Shown in pieces: positions 2,223 to 9,588 of a DNA stretch of 64,000 nt. Position 1 is the first letter of the stretch. Each line of letters begins with the position of its first letter. The notes under the pieces were generated by a model. The model was not told the DNA's origin. It worked only from the letters and a program-made list of their open reading frames with translations, and ran no database searches. Made by a program: the position numbers and the translations under genes. Source of the stretch: Amycolatopsis nigrescens CSC17Ta-90 (GTDB lineage Bacteria > Actinomycetota > Actinomycetes > Mycobacteriales > Pseudonocardiaceae); NCBI RefSeq assembly GCF_000384315.1, contig NZ_ARVW01000001.1, positions 3,109,746 to 3,173,745 on the forward strand, given 5' to 3'.

Positions 2223-2333
2223 CCCGACCGGGGTGCGCAAGCCCACATCTGCCACCCCGGCACAACCGGTCTCGTAGTGGGTACGTCCTCCTTGCTAATC
2301 CTGTTGCACGGCAAGGAAAAAGGGGGACGTGAC

Positions 2334-3128
2334 ATGACACAAAGGACAGGTGCGGCATTTCGGCGGGTGCTCGCCGGTTGCCTCGTCGGCCTGCTGCTCT
2401 TGGCCGGCTGCGCGCCGGACACCCCGGAAACCCCGCCGCAGAGCCAGTCCAACCCGGCACCGGCCGGTTCGCCGGTGCCGCAGCAGCCGTATCCGTTCGG
2501 CGAGGCGCAACAACAGGCTCCGGCCGGCGAGAACGGCCAGATCCCGGTGGTCCGGCGCATCCGGACCGACAAGCCGTACGTGTTCATCACCATCGACGAC
2601 GGCGCGGTCAAGGACCCGGACGCGCTCCGGCTGATCCAGCAGTCCGATGCCCGGCCGGTGCTCTTCCTCAACCAGCAGTACGTGTCCGGGCACGAGGACT
2701 ACTTCAAGTCCATTTTGGACAATACCGGCGCGGTGCTCGGGGACCACACGGTGGACCATCCGAACCTGCGCGGGAAGCCGTACGAGGTCCAGCGCAAGGA
2801 GATCTGCGAGGACGCGGACGACTTCGGCCGCGAACTGGGCACCCGGCCGGCGCTGTTCCGCCCGCCGTTCGGCAACTACGACCCGGCAACCCTGCGCGCG
2901 GCCGCCGCCTGCGGGATGCGCGCGGCGGTGCTGTGGAGCGCTTCGGTGAACGACGGCCAGGTGCAGTTCCAGCAGGGCGACCGGCTGCGGCCCGGCGACA
3001 TCGTGCTGATGCACTTCCGCAAGACCTTCGCCAAGGACTACACCGCCTTCCTCGACCAGGCCCGCCGCGACGGCCTCACCCCCGTCCCCCTCACCGACTT
3101 CCTCGCCCCCACCCCACCCGGCAAATAG
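2334..3128 (+). CDS. Polysaccharide deacetylase (NodB domain) lipoprotein
   Basis: A 264-residue lipoprotein with a NodB-homology domain, expected to remove N-acetyl groups from cell-wall or other polysaccharide outside the membrane. A hydrophobic N-terminus ends in the lipobox LLAGC (Cys26), followed by a Pro/Gln-rich linker (about 30-70). NodB motifs: TIDDG with Asp88/Asp89, metal-binding His138 and His142 (GDHTVDHP), RPPFG at 176-180, and IVLMHF near the C-terminus. The ATG at 2334 is chosen over an upstream in-frame start at 2277 because AGGGGG precedes it and the signal peptide then begins properly. The gene ends GGCAAATAG, so its stop codon is part of a repeated palindrome. Confidence 0.9.
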   Translation: MTQRTGAAFRRVLAGCLVGLLLLAGCAPDTPETPPQSQSNPAPAGSPVPQQPYPFGEAQQQAPAGENGQIPVVRRIRTDKPYVFITIDDGAVKDPDALRLIQQSDARPVLFLNQQYVSGHEDYFKSILDNTGAVLGDHTVDHPNLRGKPYEVQRKEICEDADDFGRELGTRPALFRPPFGNYDPATLRAAAACGMRAAVLWSASVNDGQVQFQQGDRLRPGDIVLMHFRKTFAKDYTAFLDQARRDGLTPVPLTDFLAPTPPGK

Positions 3129-3185
3129 CCGACTTTTTGCCCTTCCCGGACGCCACCTCAGGGGCAAATAGCCGACTTCTTGCCC
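3120..3185. terminator. Two tandem copies of the GCAAATAGCCGACT inverted repeat
   Basis: Copy 1 (3120-3142) has arms GGCAAA and TTTGCC around a 10-base loop. Copy 2 (3162-3185) has arms GGGCAA and TTGCCC around a similar loop. Copy 1 contains the TAG stop of the deacetylase gene; copy 2 ends one base before the TAA of the convergent CHAT gene. A third copy lies at 25280-25297. Likely a bidirectional terminator between convergent genes. Confidence 0.6.
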
Positions 3186-5771
3186 TTAACCGGCGCCGAG
3201 GCAGAGGAAGGGGCGGCGCAGCGGGTCGACGGCGGTCGCCTCGGCGAGGGCGAGCGCGGGCGAGGTGCCCGACGCCAGCCGCCGGTGCAGATCGGTCATG
3301 GTCTCCGCGGCGGCCTGGTCGCCCACCCTGGCCACCGCGCCGACCACCGTGCGGGACCCGCTGGCCAGCAGCGTGCCGGCGAAACCGAGCGCCTCCTCAC
3401 CGGGCCGGATGTGGCTCATCGCCAGCTCGCAGGCGGCCAGCACGACGTGCTCCGGCGGGCTGCCCAGCCGGGCCGTCTCGTGCGCGAACAGCGGCCCGTC
3501 CACCAGCTCCAGCCGCGAGAACAGCGCGTTCGCCGGTTCGTGCGCGCCGTGCGCGACCAGGTGCGCCATCCCGGACCCGTCCAGCGCCGCCAGCACGGTC
3601 GCGCTGGTCGCCTCCGGCCCGTCCACCACCCGGGCCTGCGGGTACACCGAGCGCAGCTGCCGCACCTCACCGATCGCGCCGGGCACCCCCGGCCCGCCGG
3701 CCAGCACGACCGGCCCGAGCGTCGGCTTGCTGGCCGCGGCCACCCACGCGGTCGCCGACGGCACGATCGACACCGGCCGCCCGCGCAACGACGGCAGCGC
3801 CGGCCACGGCAGCGCGTACAGCGGCCCGATCGGCACGATCACCAGCTCCCGGTCGCCGAGCACCTCGGCCAGCGGCTCGACCAGCATCCGGTCCAGCAGC
3901 GCGGACCGGTGCTGCGCGGAGGCGGTGACCGCCTTGACCAGCGGATCGGGCAGGTGGTCCGGGGCGAGCGCGTCCAGGTCCGCGTGCAGCTGCCTTGCCA
4001 CCTCGACCGTCTCGGCCAGCGCGCCGAGCCGGATCAGGGAGAACCGGCCGTCGCGGACCACCACCGCGGCCAGCGCGTCGCCATGGCCGACCAGGCTGAC
4101 CAGCACCCGGTCACCGAGCCGCTCGGCCACCTCGTCCGGGCTGCTGACCGGCCGCGGCCTGCCCCACGGGCTGGTGTGCCAGCCGAGCCTGCTCGCCTCG
4201 CGCTGCAGCCAGGCGTACCGGCTCTCCAGCCCGGTCACCCGCTTGCCAGCCAGCCGGTCCTGCTGCACGGTGCGCTGCACATGCCGCATCTCGGTGATGT
4301 GCTTTGCCAGCACGGTGTCCTCGATGATCGGCAGCGGCTCGTACCGGTAGACCTGCGCCCTGGTGCGCTCCTGCCAGCCGAACAGCCGCCGCGCGTCGGC
4401 CTGGCCGCGCGCCCTGTCCAGCACCAGCCCGACCGCGAGCTGACCCAGTTCCTGCCCGTGCACCGCGGTGCCGCACAGCAGGTCCAGCCCGCCCATCCGG
4501 TCGCGGACCCGGCCAAGCTCGGCCAGTCCGGCCCTGGCCTGTGCCAGCGCGGAACGAGGCCGCCCGGTGGCCACCGCCAGCTCCGCCTTGCACAGCCGCA
4601 GCAGCATCCGGTGGTCCACCGGGGTGGTCTGCCGCGGCTTCGGCACCTTGGCGAGCAGCTCCTCGGCGGCCGCGACCGCGCCGCGGCGCAGGTGCAGCCG
4701 GACCGCGAGCAGCCTGGCCACCGCCGCCTCGTCGCGCAGCCCGAGCCCGGCCAGCCGCCCGGCCAGCGCGACCAGCCCGGCGGCGAGTTTCGCGGCCGGA
4801 CGGCTTCCGGTCCGCTCCAGCGCGTCCATGGCGTCCGCGCGCAGCCTGGTCAGCGCGGCCACCTCGGCCCAGTGCACGTTGCCGCGCCGGACGAACCGCC
4901 GCCTCGCCGCCGTCGCGAGCGCCCTGGCCAGCGGGAAGTCACCGTCCAGGATGGCCGCGGCGGCGCGCGCGACCTCGGCCTCGGCAACGTCCTGGATCAC
5001 CCGGTTGCGGCGCAGCTCGGGTAGCGCCTCGTCCAGGTGCCGGGCCGCCTCGTCGGCGAGGCCGGCCACCAGCAGCGCCCGCGCCTGGTCCAGCCGCACC
5101 CTGGTCAGCCAGCCCGGCGCGGCCTGCTCCAGGATGCGCGCGGCCTCCTCGTAGTGCCGCAGCGCTTCCGGGATCTCCCCGACCAGCTGGGCCAGATCGC
5201 CGAGGCCGTGCCGCGCCTTGCCCTCCAGCCGGGTGAGCTGGTTCGCCTTGGCCAGCTGCATGCTCCGGTGCAGGTCGGCGGAGGCGTGGTCCGGGCTGCC
5301 CATGCTGGCGTGAATCTGGGCACGGTTCATGAACGTCTTGGTGAGCAGGTCGCCGTCACCCTCGCCGAGCTCTTCCAGCGCCGGAATGATCGCGTCGAAC
5401 AGGCTCAGCGCCTCGACCGAGCGGCCGATTCGCCAGAGCAGCAGGGCACGCTGCAACCCGGCCACCGAGCCCAGGGTGGTCCGAGCTCCGCCGGGCGCCA
5501 GCCGGGTCACCACCTCTTCGGCCAGCCGGAGGTGCGCCAGTCCCTTGGTGGTGGATCCGCTCTCCGCCTCGGCCGAGGCCAGGCTGATCAGCACCCGTAC
5601 CCGGAGTTCGGTGGCCACCGGACCGGCCGCGTCGCCAAGCCGGCGAAGCGCCCGTTGCAACAGCCTGGCGGCGTCCGCGGGGCGCGCGTCGGCGGCGGCT
5701 GTGGTGGCGCGGCGATACAGCTCGTCGGCCGCGCGCACAACTCGGCTCGGCGGTTCAGCGGACCCAGGCAC
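3186..5771 (-). CDS. TPR-CHAT caspase-like protease
   Basis: An 861-residue protein. About residues 10-480 are alpha-helical TPR-like repeats (many LxxA...GxxxxA units). The C-terminal 300 residues form a CHAT domain, a caspase/separase-clan cysteine protease. The catalytic dyad is visible: His741 in LVAHG and Cys781 in VVLAACE, with the usual spacing of about 40 residues. No signal peptide or membrane helix is seen, so it should be cytoplasmic. It is the last gene of a six-gene minus-strand unit, 49 bp after the gene ending at 5821. The start is GTG 5771 with only a weak ribosome site. TPR-CHAT is also the architecture of Csx29 of type III-E CRISPR, but no CRISPR component is present here. 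The substrate is unknown; neighbours in the operon are candidates. Confidence 0.9.
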   Translation of the reverse strand: MPGSAEPPSRVVRAADELYRRATTAAADARPADAARLLQRALRRLGDAAGPVATELRVRVLISLASAEAESGSTTKGLAHLRLAEEVVTRLAPGGARTTLGSVAGLQRALLLWRIGRSVEALSLFDAIIPALEELGEGDGDLLTKTFMNRAQIHASMGSPDHASADLHRSMQLAKANQLTRLEGKARHGLGDLAQLVGEIPEALRHYEEAARILEQAAPGWLTRVRLDQARALLVAGLADEAARHLDEALPELRRNRVIQDVAEAEVARAAAAILDGDFPLARALATAARRRFVRRGNVHWAEVAALTRLRADAMDALERTGSRPAAKLAAGLVALAGRLAGLGLRDEAAVARLLAVRLHLRRGAVAAAEELLAKVPKPRQTTPVDHRMLLRLCKAELAVATGRPRSALAQARAGLAELGRVRDRMGGLDLLCGTAVHGQELGQLAVGLVLDRARGQADARRLFGWQERTRAQVYRYEPLPIIEDTVLAKHITEMRHVQRTVQQDRLAGKRVTGLESRYAWLQREASRLGWHTSPWGRPRPVSSPDEVAERLGDRVLVSLVGHGDALAAVVVRDGRFSLIRLGALAETVEVARQLHADLDALAPDHLPDPLVKAVTASAQHRSALLDRMLVEPLAEVLGDRELVIVPIGPLYALPWPALPSLRGRPVSIVPSATAWVAAASKPTLGPVVLAGGPGVPGAIGEVRQLRSVYPQARVVDGPEATSATVLAALDGSGMAHLVAHGAHEPANALFSRLELVDGPLFAHETARLGSPPEHVVLAACELAMSHIRPGEEALGFAGTLLASGSRTVVGAVARVGDQAAAETMTDLHRRLASGTSPALALAEATAVDPLRRPFLCLGAG

Positions 5772-5820
5772 GCGCCCTATAGGAGCACATCCGTGAATAC
5801 GAGACGACGGCCGGTAACCC

Positions 5821-6300
5821 TCACAGCACCACGGTGGGCGTGACCACGGTCCGCCGGTTCGCCGCGGCGCCGATGTGCACCATTATCTGGGTGGTGCCGG
5901 TGGGCACGTCGTCCAGCACGAACCGGCCGCCCTCGTCCGCGGTGGTCGAGGTCGCGCCGTGTTCGGCGACCCTGACCTCCACCCCGTACTCGCCGGCCGG
6001 CACCAGCCAGCCGTCGATCCGGTGGTGCGTGCCGATCTTGGTCAGGTTGATCATCACGGTCAGGTCGCTGACGGTGAACGTGATGGTGCCCTGGTCGCCA
6101 CGGACCCCGGACCGCGCGTCGGCGCGCTCCCAACGCGCGACCTCCACGTCCAGGTCCTCCAGCGCGATGGCGAACTGCACCCGCTCCACCAGGTCGGCCG
6201 GCAGCGGGTCGAGCTCGTCGACGAGCCTGCCGATGTCTTCGAGCAGCTTGAGGTCGTCAGGGTGGGTACTGCCGCCCCCCGCCAACTGAAACTCGTTCAT
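5821..6300 (-). CDS. Small protein with C-terminal carboxypeptidase-regulatory-like beta-sandwich
   Basis: 159 residues. Residues about 12-58 form an acidic helical segment rich in Leu, Asp and Glu (LLEDIGRLVDEL...). From about residue 68 alternating beta-strands appear, with the pattern seen in carboxypeptidase regulatory-like or transthyretin-like domains (VPAGEYGVEV, then GRFVLDDVPTG). There is no signal peptide. Its ATG shares one base with the sigma-factor stop (TGATG), so translation is coupled to the sigma gene; the TPR-CHAT gene follows. I infer a regulatory partner, either an anti-sigma-like factor or a protease substrate. That role is inference from position only; no enzymatic motif is seen. 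Confidence 0.75.
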   Translation of the reverse strand: MNEFQLAGGGSTHPDDLKLLEDIGRLVDELDPLPADLVERVQFAIALEDLDVEVARWERADARSGVRGDQGTITFTVSDLTVMINLTKIGTHHRIDGWLVPAGEYGVEVRVAEHGATSTTADEGGRFVLDDVPTGTTQIMVHIGAAANRRTVVTPTVVL

Positions 6301-6911
6301 CAGCTGCCCCCTTCGCTGTCCAACAGGTCACGCATCGACTTCAGACAGCGGCCCCTGGTCGGCCCGATACTGCCGTGTGGCATCCGCAGCGCCTCGGCGA
6401 CAAGGCGATACTCCGAACGCCCCGCCAGCACCGTCATCCGCAGCAGCTCCTGGCACCGCTGGGGCAGCCGGCTGAAAGCGGCCCAGATCTCCCGGTCCCG
6501 GTCCGCCCGCAGCACCTCCGCCTCCGGTGTCGGATGGGTCTGCTGCTCGGTCTCCACCAGCGCCGTGGTCTCCTCGGTGAGCGGCACCGGTGCGGGCTTG
6601 CGCCCGAAGCTCCGTTGCGCCTCGCGGCGGGTGGTGGTGATCAACCACCCCGCCAGTGCGCGCGGTTCGTTCAACTGCTCCAGCCGGCTGAACAGCGCCA
6701 GCCACACCGTCTGCACCACGTCCTCCGCGGTGTGCCGGTCAAGGCCGTTGCCCCGAGCGACGTGCCACACCAGTGGCGTCAGCTCCTTGACCAGCCGGTT
6801 CATCGCCTGCCGGTCACCTGCCCTCGCCGCATGCATGCAGGCCGCGTACAGCTCATGGCCGTGCAGGCCCTCCCACGGTGGGTCCGCCTCGACGGTCCGA
6901 ACTTCCGTCAC
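6300..6911 (-). CDS. ECF-type RNA polymerase sigma factor
   Basis: 203 residues with region 2 at about 30-100 (TAEDVVQTVWLALF; WLITTTRREA) and region 4 at about 140-200 (LPQRCQELLRM, then a helix-turn-helix LVAEALRMPHGSIGPTRGRC). Length is normal for an ECF sigma factor. It should direct polymerase to a small regulon, probably including its own operon. The GTG start at 6911 lies 102 bp after the inhibitor gene, so an internal promoter is possible. The TGATG overlap couples it to the next gene. No zinc-finger anti-sigma gene is adjacent, which makes the following small protein or the proteases candidate regulators. Confidence 0.9.
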   Translation of the reverse strand: MTEVRTVEADPPWEGLHGHELYAACMHAARAGDRQAMNRLVKELTPLVWHVARGNGLDRHTAEDVVQTVWLALFSRLEQLNEPRALAGWLITTTRREAQRSFGRKPAPVPLTEETTALVETEQQTHPTPEAEVLRADRDREIWAAFSRLPQRCQELLRMTVLAGRSEYRLVAEALRMPHGSIGPTRGRCLKSMRDLLDSEGGS

Positions 6912-7013
6912 CGCATCCGCCCCACTTCCGATTGGTGCTCCTCAAGTCGGTGTTCGAAGTATCGCGGCATCTACCGAATAGGTGAGCGTCGAGGTCGTCC
7001 CCAGATACATGTG

Positions 7014-7379
7014 TCACTCGCTTGGAGTAGTCGGAAAGTCGGTCGTTAACACAAACGTGAGCTCACGGCGCGGTTCTGTTTCCCACGGCCGCGCCAGTTC
7101 GGCCTTGAGCAGGTGCCGGCCGGCGCCGACGATGTCGAACGCCAGCCGGCGGACCCCACCCATTCCCGGCGGCCCCGCCCCCGCGGCCGCCCGGCCCCCT
7201 TCAGGGTGGCCCTGTTCCCCCTGGACATGCTCGTCCACCAGCACCCGCACCCCCGCCGGCAGCCGCCATCGCCACCGGTATCCGGATGCCGGGACCTCGC
7301 GGAGCCGCAGCTCCACGGTGTCCCCTACGCGCAGTTCGGTCGGCACCCCCGCGTCGACCTGCGCGATCTGAACGAGCAC
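7014..7379 (-). CDS. Chagasin-type cysteine protease inhibitor (I42 family)
   Basis: 121 residues, a single immunoglobulin-like I42 domain. All three inhibitory loops are visible: VPASGYRW (residues 29-36, like the NPTTGY loop), PGMGGV (71-76, the Gly-Gly loop) and RPW (97-99). Family members plug the active site of papain-like (C1) peptidases, and such a peptidase is encoded two genes upstream at 8206-9357. There is no signal peptide, unlike many I42 proteins, so enzyme and inhibitor should meet in the cytoplasm. The GTG start at 7379 is preceded by GAGAGGGAG. An 81-bp gap separates it from the repeat-protein gene. Confidence 0.9.
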   Translation of the reverse strand: MLVQIAQVDAGVPTELRVGDTVELRLREVPASGYRWRWRLPAGVRVLVDEHVQGEQGHPEGGRAAAGAGPPGMGGVRRLAFDIVGAGRHLLKAELARPWETEPRRELTFVLTTDFPTTPSE

Positions 7380-7460
7380 GCTCCCTCTCCCGGGTTCTTC
7401 AGGGCGGCGGTGACCGGCGGCCCCCTCGACTGCCGGCCACCGCCTGTCTCGAGTAGTTCC

Positions 7461-8174
7461 TCAGACCAGCAACTGGTCGATCTGGCCCAAGGCGTCCTCG
7501 TGGTAGCTCACCGGGATCCGGTGGTTCCTGGCCATCAGTGCCAGCAGCACCAGGTGGCCGTGCCCGGAGTCGGATCCCGGCGAAAGCCGCTTCCAGCCCA
7601 CGCCGTGCACGAAAGCCCACACGCCCGGCGAAGAGTCGTACGAGTACAGGGCCGTGATGCCCCGGTTGTGCACCCAGCCGTCACCCTGCTCGGCGGTGAC
7701 CGGTGCGGGCGCGGCAGCACCGCCGTTCCCGCCGTTGCGCTGCGGCGGGTTGTACGGCTCCCAGCCGTTCGGCGCGACCGGCGGCGGGCCGTAAGGCTCC
7801 CAACCGGTAGGTGCGACGGCGGGACGCGGCGGGGTGTACGGCTCCCAGCCCGTCGGCGCCACCGGCGGCGGGCTGTAGGGCTCCCACCCGGTCGGTGCGA
7901 CCGCGGGACGGCCGGCCGGCGGGCTGTACGGCTCCCAGCCGTTGGGCGCGACCGCGGGACGCGGCGGGGTGTAGGGCTCCCACCCAGTGGGCGCGACCGC
8001 GGGACGGCCGGCGGGCGGGCTGTAGGGCTCCCAGCCCATCGGCGCCACCGGCGGCGGGCCCTCCGGGGTCCAGTTGGGCGGGACCGGCGGCTGGTTCTCC
8101 TCGAGCCGCTCCACGTCACCCCCAGACCGGTCCTCGTTGTCCGGAGGCTGCGCCTTCTTCTCGGTGTTCGTCAT
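7461..8174 (-). CDS. WEPY-repeat protein sharing its C-terminal domain with the adjacent peptidase
   Basis: 237 residues in three parts: an acidic N-terminus (1-38); seven imperfect Pro-rich repeats ending in GWEPY(S/T/G/N)PP (about 41-144); and a C-terminal domain (about 165-237). The C-terminal domain contains VWAFVHGVGWKRLS and then L..L..MARNHRIPVS. The same pattern (GWAYLENLGWTRLS ... ARAGGHPVAP) ends the C1 peptidase encoded just upstream, so the two proteins share a domain. There is no signal peptide or membrane helix. It lies 31 bp after the peptidase gene and before the inhibitor. Function is unknown; a scaffold, adaptor or substrate for the protease system is plausible inference. 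Confidence 0.8.
   Translation of the reverse strand: MTNTEKKAQPPDNEDRSGGDVERLEENQPPVPPNWTPEGPPPVAPMGWEPYSPPAGRPAVAPTGWEPYTPPRPAVAPNGWEPYSPPAGRPAVAPTGWEPYSPPPVAPTGWEPYTPPRPAVAPTGWEPYGPPPVAPNGWEPYNPPQRNGGNGGAAAPAPVTAEQGDGWVHNRGITALYSYDSSPGVWAFVHGVGWKRLSPGSDSGHGHLVLLALMARNHRIPVSYHEDALGQIDQLLV
7743..8054 (-). repeat. Seven tandem Pro/Trp repeat units inside the WEPY protein gene
   Basis: On the minus strand the units read roughly (R)P(A)VAP-x-GWEPY-x-PP, with lengths alternating between about 12 and 18 residues. The DNA of several units is almost identical, which suggests recent duplication or slippage. Unit number may vary between strains. Confidence 0.8.
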
Positions 8175-8205
8175 CGCTGTTCGCTCCCCTGCTTGTTGCC
8201 AGGCC

Positions 8206-9357
8206 TCAGTAGGCGATCTGGATCATGCTCAACTCGTCGTTGTCGATGAACGGAGCCACCGGATGGCCCCCGGCCCGCGCATGGGTCAACATCGCGAGCT
8301 TGCTGGTCGTGCTGTGCGCCCCGCCGGAAAGCCTGGTCCAGCCCAGGTTCTCCAGGTACGCCCAGCCATTGGCGTCATGCGCCGAAGTGAACAGGCGCAG
8401 CGCGCGCTGGGCCGGCAGCCAGGCGCGCAGGTTGACCCCCGTGCAGCCCAGCGTGGTCGGCCGGGCGGCCGGATAGTCCTCGAGGAAGGCCTCGCCGTAC
8501 GCGATCCGCAGGAAGCCCTGCTCCCCCCAGTCCGCGCCCCACGAGTTCTTCGCGATCCAGCAGCCGGCCACGTCGTCCCAGCCGATGAGCGCGACGCAGT
8601 GTCCGCCGCTGGTCTCGTCGGTGGTGCGCCGGTAGACGCCGCCGGTGTAGTGGAACAGGTCGTTGTAGATCACCAGGCAGGCCGCGACCGGCCCGTACCC
8701 GTAGATGTGCTGTTTGATCGCCGCGGGGTTGCCGCTGAGATCGATGACCTCTTCCGCGTGCGCGACCCGGTCCGGCCAGCCGGGGTTCAGCGCGCCGGCG
8801 CCGTCTTCGCGGTAGGGGAAGTAGTCCTCGAAGGTGACCCCGCTGGACATGCTGTCGTCGAACAGCTCGTCCGGCCAGGAACCGTCCGGGTGCAGGCTTT
8901 CGCGTGCGGCGGCGTACCCGAAGTGCAGGTGCGCCTCGGACAGGTCCAGGTTCAGCCCCGGCGCCGACCGGGTGTACGCGGCCGTGCCCTCCAGCGCGGC
9001 CGCGGTGGCGAACGCGGTGCAGGAACCCGTCTCGCCCTGGTCCTTGACCGGGGTGACGTAGTTGCGGCCGTGGAGGTTCCGCAGGTCGAACCGCTCGGGG
9101 AGGCTCGACGAAGGGGCCAGCGCGGCGACCACCGACTCGCCGGCCGTGTGGAAGGCGGCGTGCGCCATCCGCGACGGCTGGTGCACTCGGAGGTCGATCT
9201 CGCCCTGGTCCGGTGCCGGCACCCCGAGCCGCACCGCGCGCGACTCGACGGAAAGCCTGCTCAGCCTGGTCTCACCGACCCGCCAGGAGGCGCCCAGCGA
9301 GGCCAGCGAATCGCGAATGCTCGCGATCTCGGCCTCGCAGGAGTGATCGGCGGTCAT
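8206..9357 (-). CDS. Papain-like (C1 family) cysteine peptidase
   Basis: 383 residues. The N-terminal 90 residues look like a propeptide or regulatory region; the C1 domain spans about 90-310. Catalytic residues are visible: Gln107 and Cys113 in DQGETGSC, His253 in GGHCVALIGW and Asn271 in KNSWG. A C-terminal appendix (about 324-383) is shared with the neighbouring WEPY protein. No signal peptide is seen, so it is probably intracellular, unusual for a papain-like enzyme. The ATG at 9357 has GGGAGAG just upstream. It is the first gene of the unit that also encodes its likely inhibitor (7014-7379), an ECF sigma factor and a CHAT protease. Confidence 0.92.
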   Translation of the reverse strand: MTADHSCEAEIASIRDSLASLGASWRVGETRLSRLSVESRAVRLGVPAPDQGEIDLRVHQPSRMAHAAFHTAGESVVAALAPSSSLPERFDLRNLHGRNYVTPVKDQGETGSCTAFATAAALEGTAAYTRSAPGLNLDLSEAHLHFGYAAARESLHPDGSWPDELFDDSMSSGVTFEDYFPYREDGAGALNPGWPDRVAHAEEVIDLSGNPAAIKQHIYGYGPVAACLVIYNDLFHYTGGVYRRTTDETSGGHCVALIGWDDVAGCWIAKNSWGADWGEQGFLRIAYGEAFLEDYPAARPTTLGCTGVNLRAWLPAQRALRLFTSAHDANGWAYLENLGWTRLSGGAHSTTSKLAMLTHARAGGHPVAPFIDNDELSMIQIAY

Positions 9358-9588
9358 AGGCTCTCCCGGTGCAGGTTGAAGGGGTCGGGCTCAAGTGCTA
9401 CGCCCATATGACGCAGCAAACCCCTTCGCAGATACACACTCAGAGTATTTTCTTGGCAGATTTTTCCTCAGCTTCGACCGGTTCCACCCGTTTGCCTGGG
9501 ATCCGTTAGCGGTGTGTGACCTCAACCGCGGGATAAAACAGGCATAACGGACACGGCCTGAGTGTCTGCCGGGAGAGCGAGCCGGGCG
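9358..9588 (-). promoter_or_regulatory. Presumed promoter region of the C1/CHAT protease unit
   Basis: A 231-bp gap between the C1 peptidase start and the end of the GbsR-type gene. It is AT-richer than its surroundings near 9440-9475 (AGTATTTTCTTGGCAGATTTTTCC on the plus strand, split by GG). No ORF or clear hairpin is seen. I cannot identify a specific -35/-10 pair with confidence. Confidence 0.35.

Follow-up and report, generated by a model that had tools for sequence, protein, structure and literature searches.

A six-gene unit of a sigma factor, a papain-like peptidase and a TPR-CHAT protease in Amycolatopsis nigrescens

Extracytoplasmic function (ECF) sigma factors of the ECF54 type have been described next to genes for CHAT proteins, subtilases and a "carboxypeptidase"; the accessible part of that review gives no anti-sigma factor for them and proposes regulation by proteolysis (PMC8999054). 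The accessible parts of two further papers describe a type III-E CRISPR precedent that links Csx29, Csx30 and a sigma factor (PMC10028731) and related caspase-ECF systems (PMC8195603). Here we analyse a unit of six genes in a 64,000-nucleotide (nt) stretch of the Amycolatopsis nigrescens CSC17Ta-90 genome (hereafter the window, whose positions are used throughout). The unit encodes a papain-like C1 peptidase, a repeat protein termed WEPY, a chagasin-type I42 inhibitor, an ECF-type sigma factor, a 159-residue protein (P159) and a caspase-like protease with tetratricopeptide repeats (TPR-CHAT). Staphopain-staphostatin operons also pair a papain-like protease with a dedicated cytoplasmic inhibitor, although their protease is secreted and their inhibitor family differs from the one found here. 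We read the locus as a two-block unit that would be run by its own sigma factor, kept in check by P159, and equipped with two downstream proteases, CHAT and C1, joined by WEPY. Judged from sequence comparison, we give this reading a probability of roughly 45%.

As in the described ECF54 context, a CHAT gene lies in the neighbourhood of an ECF sigma gene. To the extent that the ECF54 account is accessible, two differences stand out: C1, I42 and WEPY are found here where paralogous loci have a subtilase, and P159, unlike the "carboxypeptidase", is modelled as a beta sandwich whose similarity to a carboxypeptidase regulatory domain is weak at best. The same text makes no mention, in its accessible part, of the promoter-like box, the small peptides or the RNA hairpin reported below (PMC8999054). 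Among the NCBIfam matches listed (25 of 55), TIGR02937 (sigma-70 ECF superfamily) alone passes its cut-off. In the open-licence PubMed Central papers searched, we saw no account of the form with papain, inhibitor and WEPY, nor of the box, the peptides or the hairpin; the context of sigma factor, CHAT and subtilase, with proteolysis predicted, is already known from what is accessible on ECF54.

Similarly to the type III-E CASP system (Cas7-11/Csx29/Csx30/CASP-sigma), the unit combines a TPR-CHAT protein with an ECF-like sigma factor and one further protein at a single locus. However, the Csx29 model NF041237 scores only 16.7 bits here against a cut-off of 300. None of the six proteins has a Cas domain (cas genes further off were not sought), no CRISPR-like repeat array is present in window positions 1-30000, and the nine weak matches that the P159 profile gave in PDB sequences do not include Csx30. 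The caspase-ECF systems, as far as their description is accessible, share the coupling of a caspase-like domain, TPRs and an ECF sigma factor in one neighbourhood. In contrast to those systems, the six proteins show no EACC2, TRADD-N or DUF1822 among their Pfam matches, EACC2 not having been searched for specifically.

Gene order and conservation of the unit

All six open reading frames (ORFs) lie on the minus strand, at positions 3186-9357 of the window, in a 9.1 Mb genome assembled as a single contig; the closest named relatives of P159 are from Amycolatopsis. In order of transcription they encode C1 (383 residues, 8206..9357; Pfam PF00112, 1e-34), WEPY (237 residues, 7461..8174; seven GWEPYxPP repeats, then a domain resembling the C-terminal part of C1), I42 (121 residues, 7014..7379; PF09394, 7.6e-15, 55.4 bits against a cut-off of 27.2), the sigma factor (203 residues, 6300..6911; sigma region 2, PF04542, 8e-11; TIGR02937, 4.5e-19), P159 (5821..6300) and TPR-CHAT (861 residues, 3186..5771; CHAT PF12770, 1e-26, plus TPRs). 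The gaps are 31 nt between C1 and WEPY, 81 nt between WEPY and I42, 102 nt between I42 and sigma and 49 nt between P159 and CHAT, while the sigma and P159 genes overlap by one base. Thus the ORFs and their Pfam domains bear out the preliminary description of this DNA, which had reported six same-strand genes with short gaps or overlaps. Alignment also agrees with the catalytic residues it had named: the papain-family triad Cys113/His253/Asn271 of C1 is invariant in 11/11 aligned sequences including that of the window, and His741 and Cys781 of CHAT are each kept in 39 of the 41 aligned rows that cover the position. Signal peptides were assessed by eye alone.

We analysed conservation in a genus survey of 60 genomes, a class survey of 148 genomes from which 29 P159 loci were fetched, and a set of named C1 loci (the best 80 of 180). 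Within the genus, P159 was present in 59 genomes, CHAT relatives in 59, C1 in 11 and I42 in six. Close C1 relatives (70-100% identity, window included) occur in five genus genomes, all with the order C1-WEPY-I42-sigma-P159-CHAT. The six remaining genus C1 genes are distant (43-45%) and located elsewhere, with no sigma gene in the short flanks fetched. Among the 24 closest named C1 loci, sigma and P159 adjoin in 22 and the other two stop at contig edges; the complete order is found in 12 of the 24, the remainder lacking I42, CHAT or contig. CHAT comes next in 16 of the 22 sigma-linked loci. The six without it belong to Kibdelosporangium (3), Actinosynnema, Actinocrispum and a record labelled Rhodococcus rhodnii, and none of them has I42, compared with 12 of the 16 CHAT-positive loci. 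The R. rhodnii record (L067) falls inside Kibdelosporangium on a tree of sigma and P159 and is possibly mislabelled or mixed. Of the 56 other named C1 loci, 40 have I42 close by, in the absence of this sigma system.

The sigma and P159 genes stand side by side, in one orientation, in 79/79 loci (59 genus, 20 named). Class-wide, P159 was found in 47 of 148 genomes, with sigma beside it in 28 of the 29 fetched loci and a recognisable subtilase motif in 12 of them. CHAT is accompanied by C1 in five of the 59 genus sigma loci, occurs without C1 in 33 and is not adjacent in 19; a further one (G053) has a split CHAT and a peptide, and another (G056) stops at a contig edge. An I42 remnant with an internal stop lies beside an intact sigma-P159 pair in G004 (L051, L156), with box and hairpin retained, and is likely what remains of a papain block that has decayed. 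The unit is conserved and built from separable modules. The joining of its genes, as first described, holds in one direction, since all 22 close named C1 genes with enough flank adjoin sigma; in the other it does not, 54 of the 59 genus sigma-P159 loci being without C1. Nothing points to the anti-phage response that had also been suggested. PADLOC gave the six proteins a single weak match (Cas6 to P159, E = 0.011), and P159 is near-universal in the genus (59/60) rather than sporadic, so we rejected an anti-phage island.

Promoter-like boxes, RNA hairpin and sigma control

Alignment upstream of C1 exposed a box, TGTATC-N15-18-[CG][GC]TC, within otherwise poorly alignable DNA. In the window, conservation identifies it on the minus strand ahead of C1 (TGTATC-N17-CGTC, 9410..9436) and, in the I42-sigma gap, ahead of the sigma gene (TGTATC-N16-GCTC, 6984..7009). 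The pattern has two matches in the window against 0.13 expected, both at this unit. At sigma-linked loci, C1 has the full box ahead of it in 26 of 27 cases and the hexamer TGTATC in 27/27, against 0/62 unlinked C1 loci (two of the 62 being duplicates). The linked loci have a common origin, and the unlinked C1 genes are more remote relatives, so the loci do not count as independent trials. TGTATC also stands ahead of the sigma gene in 51/59 genus and 16/20 named loci. The presence of this hexamer ahead of C1 and most sigma genes suggests that the sigma factor likely drives both blocks, and we predict that it would switch them on.

Between WEPY and I42, covariation and a model match of 68.5 bits mark a putative RNA hairpin on the minus strand (7401..7447). 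Neither this element nor the box ahead of the sigma gene featured in the preliminary description. It consists of a 13-bp stem and a GAGGGGG loop and lies 3' of the WEPY or peptide gene; in CHAT-less genus loci with a detected box, it follows soon after the box. Both-sided changes occur in 10 of the 13 pairs, which exceeds every shuffle and slide control. The hairpin model matches 78 of 80 sigma loci, a count that is high partly by construction, as 46 of those loci were used to build the model. In one of the two misses (L214, genome G019), intervening sequence that includes an undetermined base splits the hairpin; the other (L159) lies at a contig end. When 30 genus genomes were searched, 29 gave one match above 50 bits, at the sigma locus, the miss again being G019; further matches in these genomes reached at most 42.6 bits. 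At subtilase-type, solitary-CHAT and unlinked C1 loci the model scored at most 24 bits. All Rfam matches of the hairpin fall below family cut-offs, and in 59 loci the 300 nt to each side contain no exact 8-base complement of the loop.

The persistence of the hairpin raises the possibility that an ancestral sigma-P159 pair controls the structured RNA, with CHAT and the papain block as passengers. A genus clade that lacks CHAT, C1 and peptide retains both the hairpin and sigma-P159, and the upstream box, where found, lies about 80 nt ahead of the hairpin. However, C1 and CHAT have kept their active-site residues, no linked locus (27/27) has lost TGTATC ahead of C1, and the upstream box is undetected in 8 of 19 CHAT-less genus loci; we consider this explanation quite improbable.

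P159 and the release of the sigma factor

We used AlphaFold2 to predict the structure of P159 (mean predicted local distance difference test score, pLDDT, 80.4; predicted template modelling score, pTM, 0.57). The model has N-terminal helices at residues 14-30 and 37-49, a linker at 49-68 with pLDDT below 50, and a C-terminal beta sandwich with eight strands between residues 70 and 153. Near the end of the linker stands Arg67 (codon 6100..6102, minus strand), which is arginine in 60/60 class-wide P159 rows and in 78 of 79 sigma loci, the sole exception being histidine. In Pfam, P159 resembles only carboxypeptidase-regulatory-like domains, and these below threshold (best E = 0.003). We rejected a role as carboxypeptidase, as nothing was found beyond this similarity and a fold search returned beta sandwiches for the most part, FN3/Ig-like ones among them (best E = 0.011). 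No convincing match came from searching PDB sequences, and no anti-sigma domain was found in Pfam or among the NCBIfam matches listed. P159 nevertheless likely serves to hold the sigma factor in check.

How the sigma factor would be freed is a point on which the explanations diverge. In a Csx29-like scheme, a precedent that the preliminary description had cited, CHAT would cut the P159 linker at or near Arg67. The arginine is kept within an otherwise poorly conserved, low-confidence linker (60/60 and 78/79, as above), CHAT is co-directional with sigma-P159 and retains its catalytic pair, and the type III-E system, so far as its description is accessible, offers a precedent (PMC10028731). Yet sigma, P159 and Arg67 are all kept in 25/25 loci without an adjacent CHAT (19 genus, 6 named), which indicates that cutting by the CHAT next door does not by itself explain Arg67. 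A role in trans would fit the distant CHATs, about 47-51% identical, that the CHAT-less genus genomes hold elsewhere. Overall, we judge cleavage of P159 by CHAT unlikely; binding of the sigma factor, or cutting by another protease, are candidate functions of Arg67. What stands of the protease-gated transcription switch first proposed is a sigma-centred unit with proteases, as seen in the shared boxes, the constant sigma-P159 pairing and the conserved active sites.

A second explanation dispenses with an anti-sigma factor: the unit's proteases (C1 here, the subtilase in paralogous loci) would degrade the sigma factor itself, as the accessible review text proposes for ECF54 (PMC8999054). In seven of nine paralogous loci (L140-L148), a subtilase gene lies directly upstream of sigma, with P159 and CHAT also nearby in those seven. 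In L146 (6408-8216, minus strand) subtilase and ECF sigma factor even share a single ORF, with both Pfam domains above threshold. Such a scheme would leave P159, the most constant partner, without a role, and 54 of the 59 genus loci have no C1, 19 of them lacking both C1 and an adjacent CHAT. We regard it as somewhat less probable still than cleavage of P159 by CHAT.

WEPY, motif peptides and the TPR-CHAT protease

WEPY has zero Pfam matches. Its tandem repeats span about residues 47-144 (7743..8036, minus strand; from the repeat count and DNA repeats D2 and D3), and alignment places its C-terminal domain at about residues 165-237 (7464..7682, minus strand). BLAST and cross-matching profiles show that this domain resembles the C-terminus of C1 (about residues 308-383; 8209-8436, minus strand); it has no match in the PDB. 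CHAT-linked WEPY proteins carry tandem motif copies (GWEPYSPP, GAWDPNTPP, GNFEPNTPP), then the C1-related domain; the most deviant motifs are GWEGNSVPP (L060) and GNHNPTSTPP (L225). By reading, tandem repeats are present in 16/16 named CHAT-linked C1 loci versus 0/6 CHAT-less ones, four of which have a short WEPY lacking them, WEPY not being found in the other two. WEPY relatives at unlinked C1 loci are likewise without repeats.

In genus genomes with CHAT but no C1, the C1-type box precedes a proline-rich peptide of 45-64 residues with a related motif, for example PDGNWDPHGTKPPVN. Of the genus loci that could be assessed, all 33 that lack C1 but have an intact CHAT next door encode a motif peptide, as against 0/19 CHAT-less loci; the rule was framed on CHAT-positive loci and then applied unchanged to the others. 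A database search with one such peptide returned 18 clusters, the named matches being hypothetical proteins of Amycolatopsis. On the sigma and P159 tree, CHAT was lost three times, two of these losses being forced by supported branches, and the motif changed alongside; motif states were entered from locus readings, so the tree counts events only. Sigma and P159 persist without CHAT, while the motif vanishes with it. This pattern, seen in only two or three losses, speaks against CHAT being strictly required to release the sigma factor; it suggests that CHAT works downstream, together with the motif protein.

A second TPR-CHAT family, about 48-50% identical to that of the window, is solitary and has no sigma gene. 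A gene for a short, disordered peptide also lies upstream in 20/20 new loci (L249-L268), 15 by a strict rule, for which the background is 34 such ORFs in 2987 kb of strand elsewhere, and five by a looser one. These peptides mostly begin with MSTPT, and most have two closely spaced cysteines near the end. Short peptides also occur at six earlier solitary CHAT loci (L149-L153, L158).

The peptides could instead be leader or arrest peptides that control downstream translation or attenuation rather than partners of CHAT. They are short, some have PP-rich tails, they lie upstream of CHAT or sigma, and the sigma-linked ones have the conserved hairpin behind them. Codons in each of the three peptide sets change more at the third position than at the first or second, and amino-acid-changing codon types outnumber silent ones, the latter pattern being in keeping with a leader. 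In C1 loci, however, the motif is repeated within WEPY, a protein carrying a conserved C-terminal domain, and the leader explanation appears to us as improbable as that of passenger proteases.

Returning to the sigma-run two-protease unit, gene order, the conservation of box and hairpin, the shared C-terminal domains and the pattern of gain and loss are seen directly; the steps of binding, cleavage and transcription are those we infer. The unit would comprise two adjacent blocks, C1-WEPY-I42 and sigma-P159-CHAT, each behind a TGTATC box. Some cytoplasmic signal would free sigma from P159, and the freed sigma factor would amplify its own block and turn on the papain block. WEPY would then serve as the scaffold: CHAT would bind the motif repeats through its TPR part, and C1, which has a related domain, would pair with the C-terminal domain of WEPY. 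Until this complex acts, I42 would hold C1 back. For the hairpin, a likely role is to tune or delimit the upstream transcript. In this arrangement the papain-like and caspase-like proteases likely work together inside the cell.

Several observations weigh against this reading. Exact TGTATC is missing upstream of 8/59 genus and 4/20 named sigma genes, and even a relaxed C1-type box is found upstream in just 11 of 19 CHAT-less genus loci. Genome-wide the box is not in excess (18 matches versus 24 for a reversed control), so its function rests on conservation; a wider regulon is not indicated either, as two other genomes gave 12 versus 20 and 18 versus 14. I42 is dispensable, because it is missing from 4 of the 16 CHAT-positive named loci. 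CHAT and motif were lost jointly on just two or three branches, to which a sign test (p = 0.5) adds no weight, and no convincing peptide was found at nine subtilase-type CHAT loci.

A broader proposal is tentative and, in our view, rather doubtful: that actinomycete TPR-CHATs have cognate disordered motif proteins, and that here the repeats have been fused to a papain-partner domain. The result would be a sigma-controlled two-protease assembly, with a regulon that includes a single-copy structured RNA, forming a cytoplasmic caspase/papain cascade from a modular kit. If WEPY does physically join CHAT and the papain-like peptidase, the locus would encode a bacterial cascade of two proteases governed by a dedicated sigma factor, and the pairing of CHAT with peptides could help explain how non-CRISPR TPR-CHAT proteins find their partners. 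The analysis defines parts for such work: two predicted promoters, a sigma partner with a conserved linker arginine, a candidate TPR-CHAT docking motif and a hairpin without an Rfam family.

Among other CHAT genes, an ORF listing of the regions around those of the same genome showed no standout peptide partner. Large CHAT proteins at L154 and L155 (frames of 1129 and 1699 residues) lack the catalytic His and Cys. The solitary locus L151 has tandem GPRNTSTDPTTQ-type repeats in place of the MSTPT peptide. At L249-L268, a strongly conserved leader precedes the peptide, with a possible hairpin whose loop is AGAGGG or AAGAGGG, and TGTCATA is conserved just ahead of solitary CHAT in 17 of the 18 loci shown. 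In the window, a polysaccharide deacetylase gene (2277-3128, plus strand) is convergent with CHAT, and such a gene sits directly after P159 in loci of the CHAT-less clade. A 35-nt sequence occurs as two direct copies around the 3' end of CHAT (3120-3197).

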